A stretch of DNA of 64,000 bases, from contig OX437086.1 of assembly GCA_949299565.1 (NCBI GenBank), positions 290,919-354,918 of the forward strand. The letters run 5' to 3'. The notes beneath the pieces were generated by a model. That model had not been told where the DNA came from. It worked only from the letters and a program-made list of their open reading frames with translations, and ran no database searches. How positions within the stretch are numbered: the first letter of the stretch is position 1; every line of letters begins with the position of its first letter. Of the stretch, positions 2,171 through 41,990 are shown piece by piece. Origin of the DNA: an uncultured Bacillota bacterium (lineage in GTDB: Bacteria; Bacillota_I; Bacilli_A; RFN20; CAG-826). The position numbers and the translations under genes are program-made.

Positions 2171-3105
2171 TGGCTCTCACAATGAAACGTTTTTTGAGTA
2201 CTGATCGCGACAAACGCGATACTCAGCTTAAAATATGGAATGGTGCTAAAACGACCGGCCTTTTCGTAGTAATGACGCTTTTAGCCATCGTCCTTTTGTT
2301 CCCATATATCTTCATGGTTAACAAATCGCTTATGAGCAGCGCGATGATTATTAACCCTGATGTTCAATTTTTCCCTGATTGGGGCGATCTCCGGTTTGTT
2401 AACTATTATTTGTTGTTTAATCCGACAAATACGGGCGTAACGATCGACTTCGGATGGGCGCTTATGTGGTCGTTTATCACAGTAGCCACCAACTGTATCG
2501 TTGTGCCGATCTCTGCCTCATTAGCGGCTTATTCCTTCGCTAAACTTCGTTGGAAAGGACGGAACGTTGTCTTTGCCTGCATGATGCTAACAATCATGCT
2601 TCCTGGCACTGCGACGCAGATTCCTCTCTATGTCATGTATGCACGGCTTGGATGGCTCAACACGATTATGCCGTTCACGATTCCTAACCTCTTCGGCGGC
2701 GGTGCCCTTTATATCTTCTTGATTAGACAATATATGATGGGCATTCCGAACGAATTGATTGATGCTGCTCGGGTTGATGGATGCGGAGCCTTCAGAACAT
2801 ACATCCAAATCATCATGCCAAACTGCAAAACGATTCTCCTCTATATCGCTATTCAGGTCTTCATGACTTACTGGGGCGACTACTACGGACCATTGGTCTA
2901 TATGACAACTGCAAGTGGTCATCAAGCCCAATATAACTTCGCTTACGCTCTTTTCCAGAGTTCAGTCGAAGGGGCTGCGGCGACCGAATATGGCGGTGTC
3001 AGAATGGCTGGCGGCGTCTTTATGACCCTCTTCCCAGCTATCATCTTCACAATCTTCCAAAAACAGTTGACTAATGGTGACATCACCTCTGGTCTGAAAG
3101 GATAG
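2170..3105 (+). CDS. Sugar ABC transporter permease, MalG/UgpE type
   Basis: Second CUT1 permease subunit, 311 aa, with six predicted spans and the EAA motif DAARVDGCGAFRTYIQII. The start is placed at the ATG that overlaps the preceding TGA (TGATG), because GGGGAGG lies eight bases before it; an upstream in-frame ATG at 2143 has no ribosome binding site. Overlapping stop and start imply translational coupling with the MalF-like gene, as expected for two subunits made in equal amounts. Confidence 0.93.
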   Translation: MALTMKRFLSTDRDKRDTQLKIWNGAKTTGLFVVMTLLAIVLLFPYIFMVNKSLMSSAMIINPDVQFFPDWGDLRFVNYYLLFNPTNTGVTIDFGWALMWSFITVATNCIVVPISASLAAYSFAKLRWKGRNVVFACMMLTIMLPGTATQIPLYVMYARLGWLNTIMPFTIPNLFGGGALYIFLIRQYMMGIPNELIDAARVDGCGAFRTYIQIIMPNCKTILLYIAIQVFMTYWGDYYGPLVYMTTASGHQAQYNFAYALFQSSVEGAAATEYGGVRMAGGVFMTLFPAIIFTIFQKQLTNGDITSGLKG

Positions 3106-3107
3106 TT

Positions 3108-4886
3108 ATGAATAAGAAACTCCGGATTTTCTCAGTCATGGCGCTAGGACTGTTTGCCCTTGCTTCCTGCGGCGAAAGCGGTCCGGCTCGAGTTGAAGAT
3201 ACTCGCGATTTAAGCGAATTCGACTATACGCTAGCCAATGTTGCTTGTTACGATGGTCTAAATCGCTATGTTCCTGCTGGTGGTGTCGAAAACGACAATA
3301 CAGTTGGAATGTTCTATTTCTTGTGGCATGGCACTCATGAAACAGGTATTTACAATATTAGCGAGCTTGAAAAGACAGACCCTGAAGCTATTTTTGATTT
3401 AAGTCCCAATAACAGCGTTTCTCCTGTCGGTGAATTCCATTATTGGGGTGAACCTCTCTATGGTTATTATCGTTCTGACGATCCGTGGGTTATCGCTCGT
3501 CACTGTGAACTGTTGACGATGGCTGGCGTTGATTATCTGATTTTTGATAATACGAATGCCTATACTTACCTCAATGTCGTCGATGTTCTAGCGGAAGTCT
3601 TTACCAAATTCCAAGAGCAAGGATGGGATGTTCCACGCATTGCTTTCTATTGCAATTCTGAGTCGGCTGCGACGATGCGTCAGCTTTATAACAACGTCTA
3701 TCTTTCAAATAAGTACAGCAACCTCTGGTATATGGTGGACGGGAAGCCGTTCATCGTATGCGCCGATGCGGCAATTCCAGATTCTGAATGGTTTGTTTAT
3801 CGCGACTATTTCACGATGAAATCATCGCAATGGCCGAGCCAACGTCCTGATTATGATGATGGTTTCCCGTGGATGGACTGGACATATCCTCAAGGAAATT
3901 ATGACGGCACGATGTCAGTCTCTTTAGCCCAACACCCAACTTCCAATATGGCGAATCCAAATTCTTGGGGTCGTGGCTACAGTTTCAAAACGGCCACCAA
4001 TAGCGCGGACCGCGTAAACGAAGGTAGTAACTTCGAGGAACAGTGGGAAACTGTCCATAATTCTCAATCGGAAGAAGATCCGGATGATCGGATCAATAAC
4101 GCATTCGTTACCGGTTGGAATGAATGGATGGCCATTAAGCAAAACATTGATAACAAAGTCGTCTATTGCGATGCTTTCAATGAGGAGTATTCGCGTGACA
4201 TCGAGATGATGAAGGGTGGTTATCAGGACAATTACTATCTCCAACTTGTCCGTAACGTCAAGAAATTCAAATATAGCGACGCTGAACATTATCTTTATCC
4301 CGAGGCAACAATCGATGTGACTGACTTCAGCGAAGATAATTGGAAAGATTTATCAAGTGTTTATCGTGACTTTGTCGGTGAAGTAATGCCGAGAAATCAC
4401 GCAAACATCATCAATAGCGAAACCTACCTCAATGATTCTGATCGTAACGATGTAGCAAAGACGACCGTTACGCATGACCAGAATTACCTCTATTTCCGCA
4501 TCGAAACAGCAGAGGATTTGACAACTCCTGCTTCCGGTGATCAAGGCTGGATGAACATCCTTCTTGATTCTGGTTCCGAAACTAATAACAAGTTCGCGAA
4601 TAACTATGATTTCCGAATCAACGCTCGGCGGACTGACTCCACTTGCTCAATCGAACGAGCGACAGGCACAACAACTTTCGAGGAAGTTGGCGAGGCTCAA
4701 ATGGCCTATCAAGGAAACATCCTTCAAATTGCTGTTCCTTTGAACATAATTGGCAAAACCGCCGATGATGTACATATCCGCTTCAAGGTTACTGACAATA
4801 TTCAGGATCCAACAAATATCGAAGATTATTACGTGAGCGGTGAAGCCGCACCTATTGGGAGGTTGGCCTATGAATACGGCTACTAA
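3108..4886 (+). CDS. GH99-like lipoprotein with C-terminal CBM9-like domain (copy 1)
   Basis: Probable surface glycoside hydrolase. A signal peptide ends in the lipobox LASC (Cys21), so it should be a lipoprotein. The middle of the protein resembles the GH71/GH99-like (WbsX-type) barrel: FYFLWHG near the start, AGVDYLIFDNTN, and VTGWNEW late in the barrel, a hallmark of this fold with acidic residues expected in the active site. The last about 180 residues (from roughly 415) look like a CBM9-type sugar-binding sandwich. AAAGGA precedes the ATG. The gene is followed, with a 17-bp overlap, by a longer paralogue. Characterised GH99 enzymes are endo-alpha-mannosidases, but the substrate here cannot be read from sequence; the rhamnose genes downstream are the best hint. 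Confidence 0.75.
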   Translation: MNKKLRIFSVMALGLFALASCGESGPARVEDTRDLSEFDYTLANVACYDGLNRYVPAGGVENDNTVGMFYFLWHGTHETGIYNISELEKTDPEAIFDLSPNNSVSPVGEFHYWGEPLYGYYRSDDPWVIARHCELLTMAGVDYLIFDNTNAYTYLNVVDVLAEVFTKFQEQGWDVPRIAFYCNSESAATMRQLYNNVYLSNKYSNLWYMVDGKPFIVCADAAIPDSEWFVYRDYFTMKSSQWPSQRPDYDDGFPWMDWTYPQGNYDGTMSVSLAQHPTSNMANPNSWGRGYSFKTATNSADRVNEGSNFEEQWETVHNSQSEEDPDDRINNAFVTGWNEWMAIKQNIDNKVVYCDAFNEEYSRDIEMMKGGYQDNYYLQLVRNVKKFKYSDAEHYLYPEATIDVTDFSEDNWKDLSSVYRDFVGEVMPRNHANIINSETYLNDSDRNDVAKTTVTHDQNYLYFRIETAEDLTTPASGDQGWMNILLDSGSETNNKFANNYDFRINARRTDSTCSIERATGTTTFEEVGEAQMAYQGNILQIAVPLNIIGKTADDVHIRFKVTDNIQDPTNIEDYYVSGEAAPIGRLAYEYGY

Positions 4887-37757: not shown

Positions 37758-38660
37758 TTATTGTTCTTTAATGTTGAAATATTCCCCATAAAGATTATTA
37801 ACTTCTTTAACCCATCTCTTAAAGAAACGATAGAAACCTTTCTGATGAGTTGAAAGAAAATTACTGTTGAGTTTTGCATTCCCTTTGATCGCGTCTAAGT
37901 CATAGGCCCCATTGACTTTCCATTTCTTAAGGAATCCGATTTTAATCGCATCTTTCGGACAAAAGAACGAGCAACGCATGCACATGAGACAACGATGTTC
38001 AAATTTTAAATGACCATCTTTTAAAATGATGTTGTGAGTGGGGCAAGAATTGAGACATTTATAGCAGTTGATGCATTTATTTTCATCCACCTTATATAGA
38101 AATGAATTTAGATAGGCACCTAATTCCTGCAGGCGAAACAATAAACTATTGAGACTATAGAAATAGTTTTTATGAAAAGGATGAACAATTTCGTTTTTGA
38201 ATTCGTAAAGAAAGATTTCAAGAATCTTGTCATTCAATAATAAAAGTTCTTTTGCGAGTTCATCAGGATAACGGAAATGGATATTGTAGGGGTAAAGGAA
38301 GTGATATTCATTTCTGATGATAGCGCCTCCTCTCTTTAAAGAATTTATCAAGGAGTACGATGAGGCATTATTTAGTTTTAAAGGCTCGCCGCTTTGCTTG
38401 AGAATATAAAATATTTTCCCTTTCAAGGATGAGAGACCTTTAATGTAATGCCTAAAAATTTTCGGTGCGTTAAAAGCATATATCGGATAAGACAGGATTA
38501 TATAATCATAGGGCGTTAAATCGAGAGGCTTGCTGTCGATATCGATAGAATATAAGGTGGTTTTGTAGAGATTTTGCTCTAATTTGTCTTTAATTGCCCT
38601 TGCTAAATGTGCGGTGTTGAAAGTGCCGGTATAATACAAAATCAAAACTTGATGTCTCAT
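37758..38660 (-). CDS. EFR1 family flavodoxin/ferredoxin protein
   Basis: 300 aa. An N-terminal flavodoxin-like domain (ILYYTGTFNTAHLARAI binds the FMN phosphate) is followed by two 4Fe-4S motifs, CINCYKCLNSCP and CLMCMRCSFFCP. Such proteins combine flavin and clusters for electron transfer in anaerobes; the exact redox partner is unknown. Last gene of a five-gene overlapping operon, with a 4-bp overlap to the SDR gene, which may be its partner. Confidence 0.9.
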   Translation of the reverse strand: MRHQVLILYYTGTFNTAHLARAIKDKLEQNLYKTTLYSIDIDSKPLDLTPYDYIILSYPIYAFNAPKIFRHYIKGLSSLKGKIFYILKQSGEPLKLNNASSYSLINSLKRGGAIIRNEYHFLYPYNIHFRYPDELAKELLLLNDKILEIFLYEFKNEIVHPFHKNYFYSLNSLLFRLQELGAYLNSFLYKVDENKCINCYKCLNSCPTHNIILKDGHLKFEHRCLMCMRCSFFCPKDAIKIGFLKKWKVNGAYDLDAIKGNAKLNSNFLSTHQKGFYRFFKRWVKEVNNLYGEYFNIKEQ

Positions 38661-39580
38661 TTCAATAATTCTTCAGTCAAATGAATGATCCTTTTATTAG
38701 CCTTATCCTTCCGGATGCTTTTCGGCAACTTATAAATTGTTGGATAACCCCAGGCGTGAAATAAACCACGAGGCCCGACCCATGAATCTTCTGAATTCTT
38801 TTGAAGGACGCTGGCTTTTAATAAGGATAAAGAGGCTTTCTCCGGCTTCATGAATACAATGTTCATAAGGCGAGGAACGAATAAATAAAAGAGGCGTCCA
38901 TAAGCTTTATTTTTTGGTGAAAATAATTTTGTACAGGAAACGCCGGGATGCGCGAATACGATTTGATCGCTCAATGAGTTTAAAGAACTCATCATCAAAT
39001 GTTTTGAAAGGCCATAACGACGTGTTTTGTTATTGATGGAATTTAAATACTCTCCAAACGAATCAACGTCTCGATAATCTTTGTCTTTATTGCTCAAATG
39101 GTATCTCGCAGTCAAGCTGGACACCGAGACGACTTTAAGACATGGAAAAATATTTAGAAGTTGTTCGATGAAATAGAAGGGATATAAATAATTGACGAGG
39201 TATGTTTTTTCTAAGGTTCCAGAATAATCGGGCGCTTGGTGATAGATGCCGCTTATATTGAAAAAGAGATCGATTTTCGGGAACGCTTTTAAAGATTCTA
39301 ACGCCTTATCTAAACTATCTTTTTGAAGGTAATCGAAATAAATGATTGTAATTTTCGAACCATATTCTCTTTCTAGTTCGTTTTTCAGTGTTTCCGCTAA
39401 CGATAAATTCCTCACAAAAAAAATCAAACTATTGCCGAGAAGTGCTAAATGTCTAGCGGTTGCCTCGCCAATGCTTCCGGTCACGCCGTTTAAAAGAATA
39501 GTTTTATCCTTTAAAGATGGGAGATTCTTTTGAAGCCAACAACGATATTTGTTTTCATTCTTCTTCGTTTTTATTTTCAT
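38657..39580 (-). CDS. SDR family NAD(P)-dependent oxidoreductase
   Basis: 307-aa short-chain dehydrogenase of the larger, retinol-dehydrogenase-like kind. Cofactor loop NGVTGSIGEATA, the DLFFNISG strand (NxxG), catalytic VSVSS Ser and YGLSK (Tyr-x-x-x-Lys). It overlaps the PII-like gene upstream by 26 bp and the EFR1 gene by 4 bp. Substrate not predictable; the pairing with an EFR1 protein suggests a redox step on a lipid or isoprenoid-like molecule, which is speculative. Confidence 0.9.
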   Translation of the reverse strand: MKIKTKKNENKYRCWLQKNLPSLKDKTILLNGVTGSIGEATARHLALLGNSLIFFVRNLSLAETLKNELEREYGSKITIIYFDYLQKDSLDKALESLKAFPKIDLFFNISGIYHQAPDYSGTLEKTYLVNYLYPFYFIEQLLNIFPCLKVVSVSSLTARYHLSNKDKDYRDVDSFGEYLNSINNKTRRYGLSKHLMMSSLNSLSDQIVFAHPGVSCTKLFSPKNKAYGRLFYLFVPRLMNIVFMKPEKASLSLLKASVLQKNSEDSWVGPRGLFHAWGYPTIYKLPKSIRKDKANKRIIHLTEELLK

Positions 39581-39896
39581 TATTTTCCAAACCTAAGGCT
39601 TCAATGATCGGCAAAGAAAAGACGATGCCTTGTCCTGGTGTTGTGATTCCGGATTCCTCATAGATTTTATTCATGACATCATCTTTAATTTCCAAAGGCA
39701 CGACAATGAGAACCATCTCTTTTTCCGGTTGAAGAGCAATGCCGTAGAATTTAGCGATTTCTTCATTCCCGGTTCCGCGCGCTACAACGATGGTGCCGCC
39801 ACGCGCGCCGGCTTTTCTAGCGGCTTCCATCACTAAATCAGTATTTCCTTTGTTGACGATGGCGATAATCAAACTTTGTTCTTTTTCATTTTTCAT
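39555..39896 (-). CDS. PII-like signalling protein (copy A)
   Basis: 113 aa with the ferredoxin-like PII fold: LIIAIVNKGNTDLVMEAARK (strand 1, helix 1), GARGGTIVVARGTG at the T-loop position, EKEMVLIVVP and the C-terminal GQGIVFSLPI. The usual uridylylation Tyr context is absent, so regulation must differ from GlnB. It overlaps the second PII-like gene by 11 bp and lies in an operon with a DUF1538 membrane protein, the probable target. Confidence 0.85.
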   Translation of the reverse strand: MKNEKEQSLIIAIVNKGNTDLVMEAARKAGARGGTIVVARGTGNEEIAKFYGIALQPEKEMVLIVVPLEIKDDVMNKIYEESGITTPGQGIVFSLPIIEALGLENNENKNEEE

Positions 39897-40341
39897 TTTT
39901 CAACTCCCGGATTTTTTGATCGTGATCGCTGAGGAAGCGATAAGCGGCAATGCCGTTGATAGCGTCAATCGGTAGAACGAAGGCAACGCCTTTACTGGCT
40001 CTTGAAATTTTAAAGCGCTTCATCGTTTCTTCTTCTACTTTCTCTAAAAGATCGTAATGAAGCGGGGCGACGACAATATCTTTTTTCAGGTTATCGGCTC
40101 CCAAAAGAGCAAGAATTTCTTCCGGCGGCATCGAATAGCCGTAAAGGAGAAAAGAAGCAGAAACGCCTAAATCTCGTAAAAGGTGCAAAAAGAAATCGCC
40201 TTGATGACGGTTGACGATGATAACGAAAAGAACCATTTGCCGTAACTCAGTGCGTTCTTCATAAGGGGCAAAAGTTGTTTCTTTAGTTATTTTTTTCTTT
40301 TTGATGACGCGTTTTAAAAGAACCTTTTTAGTTTTAGCCAT
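39886..40341 (-). CDS. Divergent PII-like protein (copy B)
   Basis: 151 aa. After about 35 basic residues the sequence follows the PII layout: MVLFVIIVNRHQGDFFLHLL, a glycine-poor T-loop region, KKDIVVAPLHYDLLEKVEEE and a final KGVAFVLPIDAINGI that aligns with GQGIVFSLPIIEALG of copy A. The glycine-rich loops that bind ATP in PII are poorly kept, so ligand binding may be lost or altered. It overlaps the DUF1538 gene by 8 bp; the two PII-like proteins may form a heterotrimer. Confidence 0.7.
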   Translation of the reverse strand: MAKTKKVLLKRVIKKKKITKETTFAPYEERTELRQMVLFVIIVNRHQGDFFLHLLRDLGVSASFLLYGYSMPPEEILALLGADNLKKDIVVAPLHYDLLEKVEEETMKRFKISRASKGVAFVLPIDAINGIAAYRFLSDHDQKIRELKNEK

Positions 40342-41974
40342 TTGACTCCTCCTTTTTCCAAGAGGGGAGATGAATTACTTGGTTATCATCCTTTTCCAAT
40401 TGTTGGAGAAGGGCTCGGCGATAAGCTTTCTTGGATTTAAGAATTCCAAAGAGACCGAGCGATTCAATGGCCACGAGCGGCATGACAGAAACCATTCCAA
40501 GAACTCCGAATCCATTCTCCAAAATGAATTGACCCTCGTTGATTGTTTGATAATTGAAAGAGGGGTCGTTATAAACGCCAAGCGAGTAACCGATGAACAT
40601 CGGCAAAAGGAAACAACTCGAAAGAGTTCCGGTCGCAATGCCAGAGGAATCGAAAGCGACGCCTACATAAATTTCGCTGACGAAGAACGATAAAGCGAAA
40701 GCCAAGATGTAAATTGGAATTACAAAATAAGCAATTGGAATGTTATAGCGAATGCGGATAGCGTTGAAAACAACAGCAAGGCCAGTTGCAAGACATAAAG
40801 CGATGTAAATGCTCTTTTTTCCTAATGCGCCGCGAGAAACTTCTGACACTTGATCGGCTAAAACGTGGACGCCGGGTTCAGCCAAAATGATGAGACAGCC
40901 GATAGCAAAGCCGATAAATAGGAAAAGCGGGAAATTCAAAGAGACAGCCCCTTCGCCGATTGAGGTTGCAACCGGAATAAAACCGCTAGAAGCACCCATC
41001 AAAAAGAGCACCAAGCCGATAAAGGTATAAAAAAGTCCAACAAAAATCGAGATCAACTCGCGTTTTTTAAGTTTTAGAAAGAATTGATAGACGAAGAAGA
41101 AAACAACAATCGGCGACATCGAAAGAGCGACTTCTGACAAAGAAGAAACGAAATTATCGAGATAGAAGGTGCTGATATCGCGATATGTCGGGATGCTTGC
41201 AGTCAAGCCGAGCGCGCTATCGACAAGCCCGTTTTCGATGCTTTCTAAGGCGCTGCCATTAGAAAGAAAGGCTGACATAATCATCACAGAAACAAGAGGG
41301 CCTAATGAACAAAGTCCCGAATATCCGAATGAGTCGTCCTCGGCATTTTTACCACCTCGAATTGAGGCGACGCCAATTCCGAGCGCAAGAACAAAAGGAA
41401 CCGATACAGCTCCGGTCGTTGCTCCTCCAGAATCAAAAACGATTGAATAAAAACTATCGTTGGTAACACAGCCGAGCGCGAAGACTAATCCATATCCAAT
41501 GATTAGCCAAGTTTTAAGTGATTTTTGGAAGATGACGCGGAGCATCGCTACAACAAGGAAAACACCGACGCCAATGGCGGTGATGATCATTAAAATCCAA
41601 CGTTCATTGCCCGGGAAAAAACGTGAGGAAAGAACAGAGAGGTCAGGCTCCGCTAATGTCAGCAAAACCCCCATCAAAAATCCGATAATTAAAAGGAGAA
41701 ACAGAGATTTTCTCTTTGTTAAAGTGGTGCCGGCAATCTCTCCGATTTTACCCATTGCCTTGTCAGCGCCCATTGAGAAAAGAGCAAGGCCGACAACCAA
41801 CGGAACAATTGAAATGCAAAAACTGACGAAAACAGGACCAACATTATTAAATGATGGATTATCAAGGCTTATTGCAGACAAAGAAAAATTTAAGATGATA
41901 ATCAACAAAAAAACAGGAACTATCGAAATAGCGGCTTCTTTTAATTTCAACAAAAACTCATTGTTCCCGCGCAT
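40334..41974 (-). CDS. DUF1538 (UmpA/UmpB-like) membrane protein with two fused repeats
   Basis: About 546 aa with 12 or more spans. Two homologous halves are clear: LTLAEPDLSVL and IILAEPGVHVLADQV; FDSGGATTGAVSVPF and FDSSGIATGTLSSCF. In other bacteria these halves can be separate proteins (UmpA, UmpB), reported to act as a cation/proton antiporter. Start: the ATG at 41986 overlaps a TATAAT, so if that is the -10 the ATG at 41974, about 4 nt past +1, is used. Followed by two PII-like genes, which presumably gate it. Confidence 0.88.
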   Translation of the reverse strand: MRGNNEFLLKLKEAAISIVPVFLLIIILNFSLSAISLDNPSFNNVGPVFVSFCISIVPLVVGLALFSMGADKAMGKIGEIAGTTLTKRKSLFLLLIIGFLMGVLLTLAEPDLSVLSSRFFPGNERWILMIITAIGVGVFLVVAMLRVIFQKSLKTWLIIGYGLVFALGCVTNDSFYSIVFDSGGATTGAVSVPFVLALGIGVASIRGGKNAEDDSFGYSGLCSLGPLVSVMIMSAFLSNGSALESIENGLVDSALGLTASIPTYRDISTFYLDNFVSSLSEVALSMSPIVVFFFVYQFFLKLKKRELISIFVGLFYTFIGLVLFLMGASSGFIPVATSIGEGAVSLNFPLFLFIGFAIGCLIILAEPGVHVLADQVSEVSRGALGKKSIYIALCLATGLAVVFNAIRIRYNIPIAYFVIPIYILAFALSFFVSEIYVGVAFDSSGIATGTLSSCFLLPMFIGYSLGVYNDPSFNYQTINEGQFILENGFGVLGMVSVMPLVAIESLGLFGILKSKKAYRRALLQQLEKDDNQVIHLPSWKKEESNG

Positions 41975-41984
41975 ACCCATAAGC

Positions 41985-41990
41985 ATTATA
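41985..41990 (-). promoter_or_regulatory. -10 box of the DUF1538-PII operon
   Basis: TATAAT on the minus strand, 10 nt before the ATG at 41974. No Shine-Dalgarno is present, so the message would be leaderless or nearly so. The -35 (TTTTCT) is weak. Confidence 0.4.

Follow-up and report, generated by a model that had tools for sequence, protein, structure and literature searches.

A DUF1538 transporter gene followed directly by genes for PII-like regulators forms a real and widespread module, which we describe here from a window of 64,000 nucleotides of an uncultured Bacillota bacterium. Three proteins are encoded there: T, in which two DUF1538 repeats are fused; A, a divergent relative of PII; and B, a second PII-like protein. 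Our main reading, to which we give a probability of roughly 0.55 and which draws on analogy with known PII-transporter pairs, is that A and B form a PII heteromer that docks on a cation/proton antiporter of the UmpAB type and gates it in response to a small ligand. A companion reading that we consider probable takes DUF1538 for a family of dual-topology antiporters with seven transmembrane (TM) segments per subunit, in which lone, paired, and fused forms are all extant among related bacteria, and holds that PII was duplicated and fused in step with the transporter, giving a two-subunit sensor.

Open reading frames and Pfam matches place the genes on the minus strand in the order thioesterase, T, A, B, short-chain dehydrogenase (SDR), and flavodoxin/ferredoxin-like gene (Table 1). 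T, A, and B overlap head to tail: T and A share 8 nt, with the T stop codon lying within the first codons of A (ATGGCTAA) and a strong Shine-Dalgarno sequence for A embedded in the 3' end of T, and A and B share 11 nt. The overlap between B and the SDR gene is 26 nt. In close relatives (L005 and L035) the SDR lies away from the module, and it and the downstream Fer4 gene were rejected as members of the system because the neighborhood varies among relatives. A sequence-only reading of this DNA had recognized overlapping genes for a fused two-repeat DUF1538 protein and two PII-like proteins, and all three were recovered; its lower boundary, 38657, was set too low and took in the unrelated SDR, the module itself spanning 39555-41986. 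The genome to which the window belongs (1.06 Mb, 99.98% complete) has a single DUF1538 gene and a single Pfam P-II hit, which is B. Between 34 and 46 kb, Rfam matches were limited to tRNAs elsewhere, with no riboswitch or other RNA at the operon, and promoter and terminator matches were no more frequent than in shuffled sequences.

Table 1. Features of the DUF1538-PII module and its flanking genes, in window coordinates
Feature	Position	Strand	Remarks
Thioesterase gene	42544-42023	minus	Upstream of T
T, fused two-repeat DUF1538 protein (UmpA-UmpB fusion), 550 aa	40334..41986	-	PF07556 twice, E 9e-102
DUF1538 repeat 1 of T, UmpA-like half, aa 1-262	41201..41986	-	Predicted N-in; K+R loop bias +11
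AEPD motif, repeat 1, aa 112-115	41642..41653	-	Helix break; E113 invariant
FDSGGATTG motif, repeat 1, aa 184-192	41411..41437	-	Broken helix; D185 invariant
DUF1538 repeat 2 of T, UmpB-like half, aa 263-550	40337..41200	-	Predicted inverted relative to repeat 1; K+R loop bias -10
AEPG motif, repeat 2, aa 369-372	40871..40882	-	Counterpart of AEPD
FDSSGIATG motif, repeat 2, aa 445-453	40628..40654	-	D446 invariant
Shine-Dalgarno sequence of A, AAGGAGG	40348-40354	-	6 nt 5' of the A ATG, within the end of T; read from the sequence
A, divergent PII-like protein, 151 aa	39886..40341	-	No Pfam hit; hhalign against B family E 9.8e-20
Basic N-terminal extension of A, about aa 1-30	40252..40341	-	Variable among relatives
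PII-like core of A, aa 31-133	39943..40251	-	GTA motif of the family is SMP here
B, PII-like protein, 113 aa	39555..39896	-	PF00543 E 1.1e-9
SDR gene	38657-39580	minus	Downstream of B
Flavodoxin/ferredoxin-like protein	38660-37758	minus	Downstream of SDR

The gene order that the sequence-only reading expected to find conserved is kept in relatives. DUF1538 was present in 43 of 61 relatives, 94 of 392 genomes of the phylum, and 84 of 249 genomes of a second, clostridial phylum group. Scanning the regions around these hits with T, A, and B profiles gave 170 distinct loci, mostly from Bacillota, whose counts are not independent, as related genomes share history. PII-like genes lie directly downstream in 169 of the 170, the sole exception being L203, and in 98% of the PII-linked loci the PII gene starts at most 25 nt from the end of the transporter gene, typically overlapping it by a few nucleotides; the linkage is therefore more than chance. 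The association extends to two alphaproteobacterial plasmid genera, with umpA, umpB, and one PII gene; there and in clostridia NCBI labels the neighbor a "P-II family nitrogen regulator."

These loci fall into recurring layouts. A fused transporter stands with separate A and B in 68 loci and with a fused A-B protein in 55; umpA-umpB is followed by a fused PII-PII protein in 13, by two PII genes in 7, and by one PII gene in 10, besides two tandem double modules; and in 9 loci one PII gene follows a DUF1538 gene that stands alone. The remaining loci are either truncated at contig ends or doubled. Among complete fused modules (n = 124), 123 have two PII copies, none has one, and one has none; complete umpA/umpB pairs have two copies in 18 cases and one in 13; and all nine complete lone genes have one.

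T belongs to the DUF1538 family, matching PF07556 over two stretches at 339 bits against a gathering score of 22.6. Its closest characterized relative in that Pfam family is UmpAB of Halomonas zhaodongensis, a heterodimer of two homologous 7-TM subunits of which T is the fused equivalent and, among the literature found, the only DUF1538 antiporter assayed (PMC5484666). Since UmpAB is an antiporter of Na+, Li+, or K+ with H+ (PMC5484666), the suggestion that T is a candidate cation/proton antiporter holds up. Unlike UmpAB, T is fused and scores only 121 and 94 bits against the NCBIfam UmpA and UmpB equivalogs (NF041627 and NF041628; cut-offs 490 and 500), so its substrate may differ. The text of the UmpAB paper contains no mention of PII (PMC5484666). 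UmpAB was active in Escherichia coli from a 4.2-kb clone ending with umpB (PMC5484666), and its own PII gene would therefore be dispensable for transport, as expected of a regulator.

Fourteen TM segments are predicted for T, with both termini inside, and hydropathy gives seven per DUF1538 repeat, two of which merge in some profiles. The AEPD/AEPG and FDSGG motifs are conserved, lie at helix breaks, occupy matching places in both repeats, and are obvious candidates for the ion site. An AlphaFold2 model of T was of fair quality (pLDDT 77, pTM 0.79), the alignments used for structure prediction being shallow (6 to 7 rows, with one partial locus contributed by a scan of IMG/VR). Searches of the PDB gave no sequence match for T and no convincing fold match for its model (best Foldseek E 0.02; VIA Z 5.1 over 60 residues); a likeness to EAAT was weak and partial (Z about 4).

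Counts of K and R on alternate loops suggest how these proteins are oriented. The bias is +4.3 in umpA and -5.6 in umpB (n = 32 each), and in fused proteins it is +8.0 in N-terminal halves and -7.8 in C-terminal halves (n = 127 each). Lone DUF1538 proteins are balanced (+0.2, standard deviation 1.1, n = 9; Mann-Whitney 4e-5 against umpA and 6e-6 against umpB), and in eight of the nine cases the lone gene holds the only DUF1538 repeat in the genome. Bias is thus opposite in paired subunits and lacking in lone ones; acidic residues had no matching pattern between fused halves. Loop charges say that umpA inserts N-in and umpB N-out and that the fused halves are oppositely oriented. The same charge patterns have been described for singleton and twin Fluc proteins (PMC3755343) and for EmrE (PMC4560821); in both families lone genes are charge balanced, pairs are oppositely biased, and a relation to inverted repeats is drawn (PMC3755343, PMC4560821). 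Because the DUF1538 pattern matches theirs, lone proteins are probably antiparallel homodimers inserted both ways up, umpA/umpB probably antiparallel heterodimers, and T probably an inverted repeat within one chain whose termini both face the cytosol. DUF1538 differs from EmrE/SMR and Fluc in that each stage has a PII partner and in that its subunit has an odd number of TM segments, seven, so that fusion needs no linker helix.

In the repeat tree each set of fused halves is a single group (99% SH-aLRT), the N-terminal one beside umpA and the C-terminal one beside umpB, and one fusion event would therefore suffice to explain the fused proteins of the sample; the tree also allows the lone genes to lie outside both umpA and umpB, as an ancestral form might. 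In the PII tree, first (A) and second (B) copies form two groups with few exceptions, but the PII proteins of lone genes fall within the B group, a placement that is weakly supported. Within the literature covered, with most subscription journals and preprints lying outside it, we found neither an earlier link of DUF1538 with PII nor an earlier dual-topology reading of the family.

Both copies had been proposed to be PII relatives, and profile searches bear this out. B scores 39 bits against P-II PF00543 (gathering score 25), and a profile search links it to solved PII structures, with 9p1x as the best match (E 7.7e-8). A alone has no Pfam hit and no match in the PDB either as a sequence or as a profile, but a profile of 44 A proteins aligned by hhalign with one of 42 B-type and single PII proteins over 103 columns with a probability of 99.2%, and by homology A and B are genuine PII paralogues. 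Most motifs common to B and single PII proteins (AGAxGGT, RGTGxHE, and IEPEKE) are lost from the A family, which keeps mainly a lysine and a GIAF turn, one K and one G being conserved at 90% or more. A structure model of a relative with fused A-B (L038; pLDDT 62) has the beta-alpha-beta-beta-alpha-beta order of PII in both halves; their Z scores of about 9 to 10 against PII chains, including GlnK of the AmtB complex, by themselves indicate only the common ferredoxin-like fold. The evidence for the fold of A is the A half of this model (Z about 9.5 to GlnK), a single chain of modest confidence that carries no oligomer information. The basic N-terminal extension noted in A is present in the window; it varies in length, is nearly absent in many relatives, and is not a general feature.

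Of the PII pocket residues, T29, G37, K58, G87, and G89 have equivalents in B, and D88, K90, R101, and R103 have none. The usual ATP binding is therefore not assured, although B may bind nucleotide in a nonstandard way. Its family has PGxGIAF instead of the B-loop GDGK and no arginine at the C-loop positions R101 and R103, the elements that serve the ATP phosphates in canonical PII, for which reason B was rejected as a canonical GlnB or GlnK. The cyclic di-AMP receptor PstA was also rejected, as no hit up to E 1 belonged to its Pfam family.

Some lineages encode A and B as two genes and others as one fused protein, both states occurring within the window's own genus. On the fused-transporter tree this distribution needs four changes, three of them forced by well-supported branches, and such repeated fusion and fission is good evidence that A and B work together. 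Most PII proteins are homotrimers, and A and B could each form one, with one binding the transporter while its neighbor senses the ligand or acts as a buffer for it, their adjacency reflecting tandem duplication only. The loss from A of most of the motifs that B retains, and the fact that the two are often separate genes, as in the 68 fused-transporter loci, would suit this arrangement; we think it unlikely, as 55 fused-transporter and 13 split-transporter loci encode the two in a single polypeptide, and repeated switches between the two states would be hard to keep up without assembly. A and B thus very likely form one 1:1 unit. The heteromer suggested by the sequence-only reading gains from the many genomes with fused A-B, but its single mixed trimer is less likely, since a fused chain holds the two at 1:1, a ratio not possible in a ring of three; A3B3, or else a pair of mixed rings, is more likely.

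The premise that PII proteins usually work singly calls for correction: NifI1-NifI2 already provides a case of neighboring PII paralogues that act as one complex on one target (PMC3831643, PMC8395244). A and B resemble that pair in being adjacent paralogues, are often fused, and may likewise form a complex; the NifI target is nitrogenase, not a transporter, and no fused form is mentioned in the cited passages.

Four near-complete genomes of the same family (G078, G236, G246, and G249) lack DUF1538 altogether yet carry adjacent A and B genes, in the vicinity of a pseudouridine synthase gene resembling the one that precedes DUF1538 in other relatives, and one genome (G162) has a second PII pair ahead of an ABC transporter pair (L238). 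Retention of the pair without DUF1538 supports the A-B unit, shows that the unit can do without the transporter, and means that the pair may have a second target. Together with the DUF1538 gene that has no adjacent PII at L203, the four genomes weigh against the proposed gating. They and the ABC transporter case would fit a general PII heteromer whose main target is elsewhere, be it an enzyme, a regulator, or another transporter, with DUF1538 as one client clustered for coexpression under ion or energy stress. We regard this as doubtful, given that DUF1538 is nearly never without PII (93 of the 94 DUF1538 genomes of the phylum also carry a B-type PII) and that PII copy number tracks the state of the transporter. 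It is very improbable that A is merely a functionless duplicate in decay: for all its long branches, its loss of the GGT, RGTG, and PEKE motifs, and the lack of even the GTA motif in the window, A occurs in 123 of the 123 complete fused-transporter loci having PII, keeps its K and G, and persists where DUF1538 has been lost.

In the gating model that we prefer, T would be the most derived form of the UmpAB-type cation/proton antiporter, two opposite 7-TM repeats in one chain. A and B would assemble 1:1, probably as two stacked or interleaved trimers (A3B3), in which B, keeping most of the PII pocket, would be the likely ligand-binding part and A a diverged partner giving the regulator two different faces. 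The heteromer would dock on the cytosolic side of T, where the fused inverted repeat may offer it two different surfaces. A ligand, most likely an adenine nucleotide, would bind mainly at B or at A-B interfaces, and its state would set whether the heteromer opens or blocks T, comparable to GlnK on AmtB and SbtB on SbtA. PII proteins encoded beside transporters usually dock on them, as in these two systems, and in SbtA-SbtB a PII-like protein is encoded with the transporter that it regulates. PII-transporter pairs are thus already known. In GlnK-AmtB the PII gene also lies beside that of the transporter, on which GlnK docks (PMC3831643); there one PII homotrimer meets a trimeric channel, whereas the module has two PII paralogues, a two-fold antiporter, and a B protein without the canonical ligand residues. 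SbtB has been described as a regulator (PMC10991534), and its system differs from the module in that there is only one PII-like protein and the transporter is unrelated.

Few transporter targets are known for PII proteins, which rank with the most widespread of signal proteins. If the gating model is true, PII fixed to a whole antiporter family links the energy or second-messenger state of the cell to its Na+, K+, and pH balance, and the module lends itself to tests of heteromeric PII assembly. The DUF1538 proteins, in their lone, paired, and fused forms, represent a natural series for the origin of inverted-repeat transporters, with a 7-TM unit that is large compared with known dual-topology cases. 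Its arrangement at this locus illustrates a way in which a two-fold transporter could have arisen jointly with a two-part sensor.

The order in which DUF1538 is followed by PII genes had a sole clear exception, a locus of genome G360 (L239) at which three PII genes precede two DUF1538 genes. At two other loci (L196 and L205), the entire umpA-umpB-PII module is duplicated in tandem. Downstream of the PII-like gene B, the two genes listed below overlap one another and B; they possibly encode a redox pair and are not conserved alongside the DUF1538-PII module.

Gene groups and their coordinates
Feature	Sequence	Positions	Strand
Short-chain dehydrogenase gene, then flavodoxin-like/4Fe-4S fusion protein gene	Window	37758-39580	
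Additional PII pair, then ABC transporter gene pair	L238 (G162)	2692-4788	
Three PII genes, then two DUF1538 genes	L239 (G360)		-

Adjacent A and B genes are retained at L233, L234, L235, and L236, near a pseudouridine synthase gene, in genomes without any DUF1538 gene, which seems to have been lost from this locus. The additional pair in G162, without DUF1538, lies directly before genes for an ABC ATPase and a UPF0014/FetB-like permease (both as assigned by eye), and this position suggests a further transporter client of such PII pairs.
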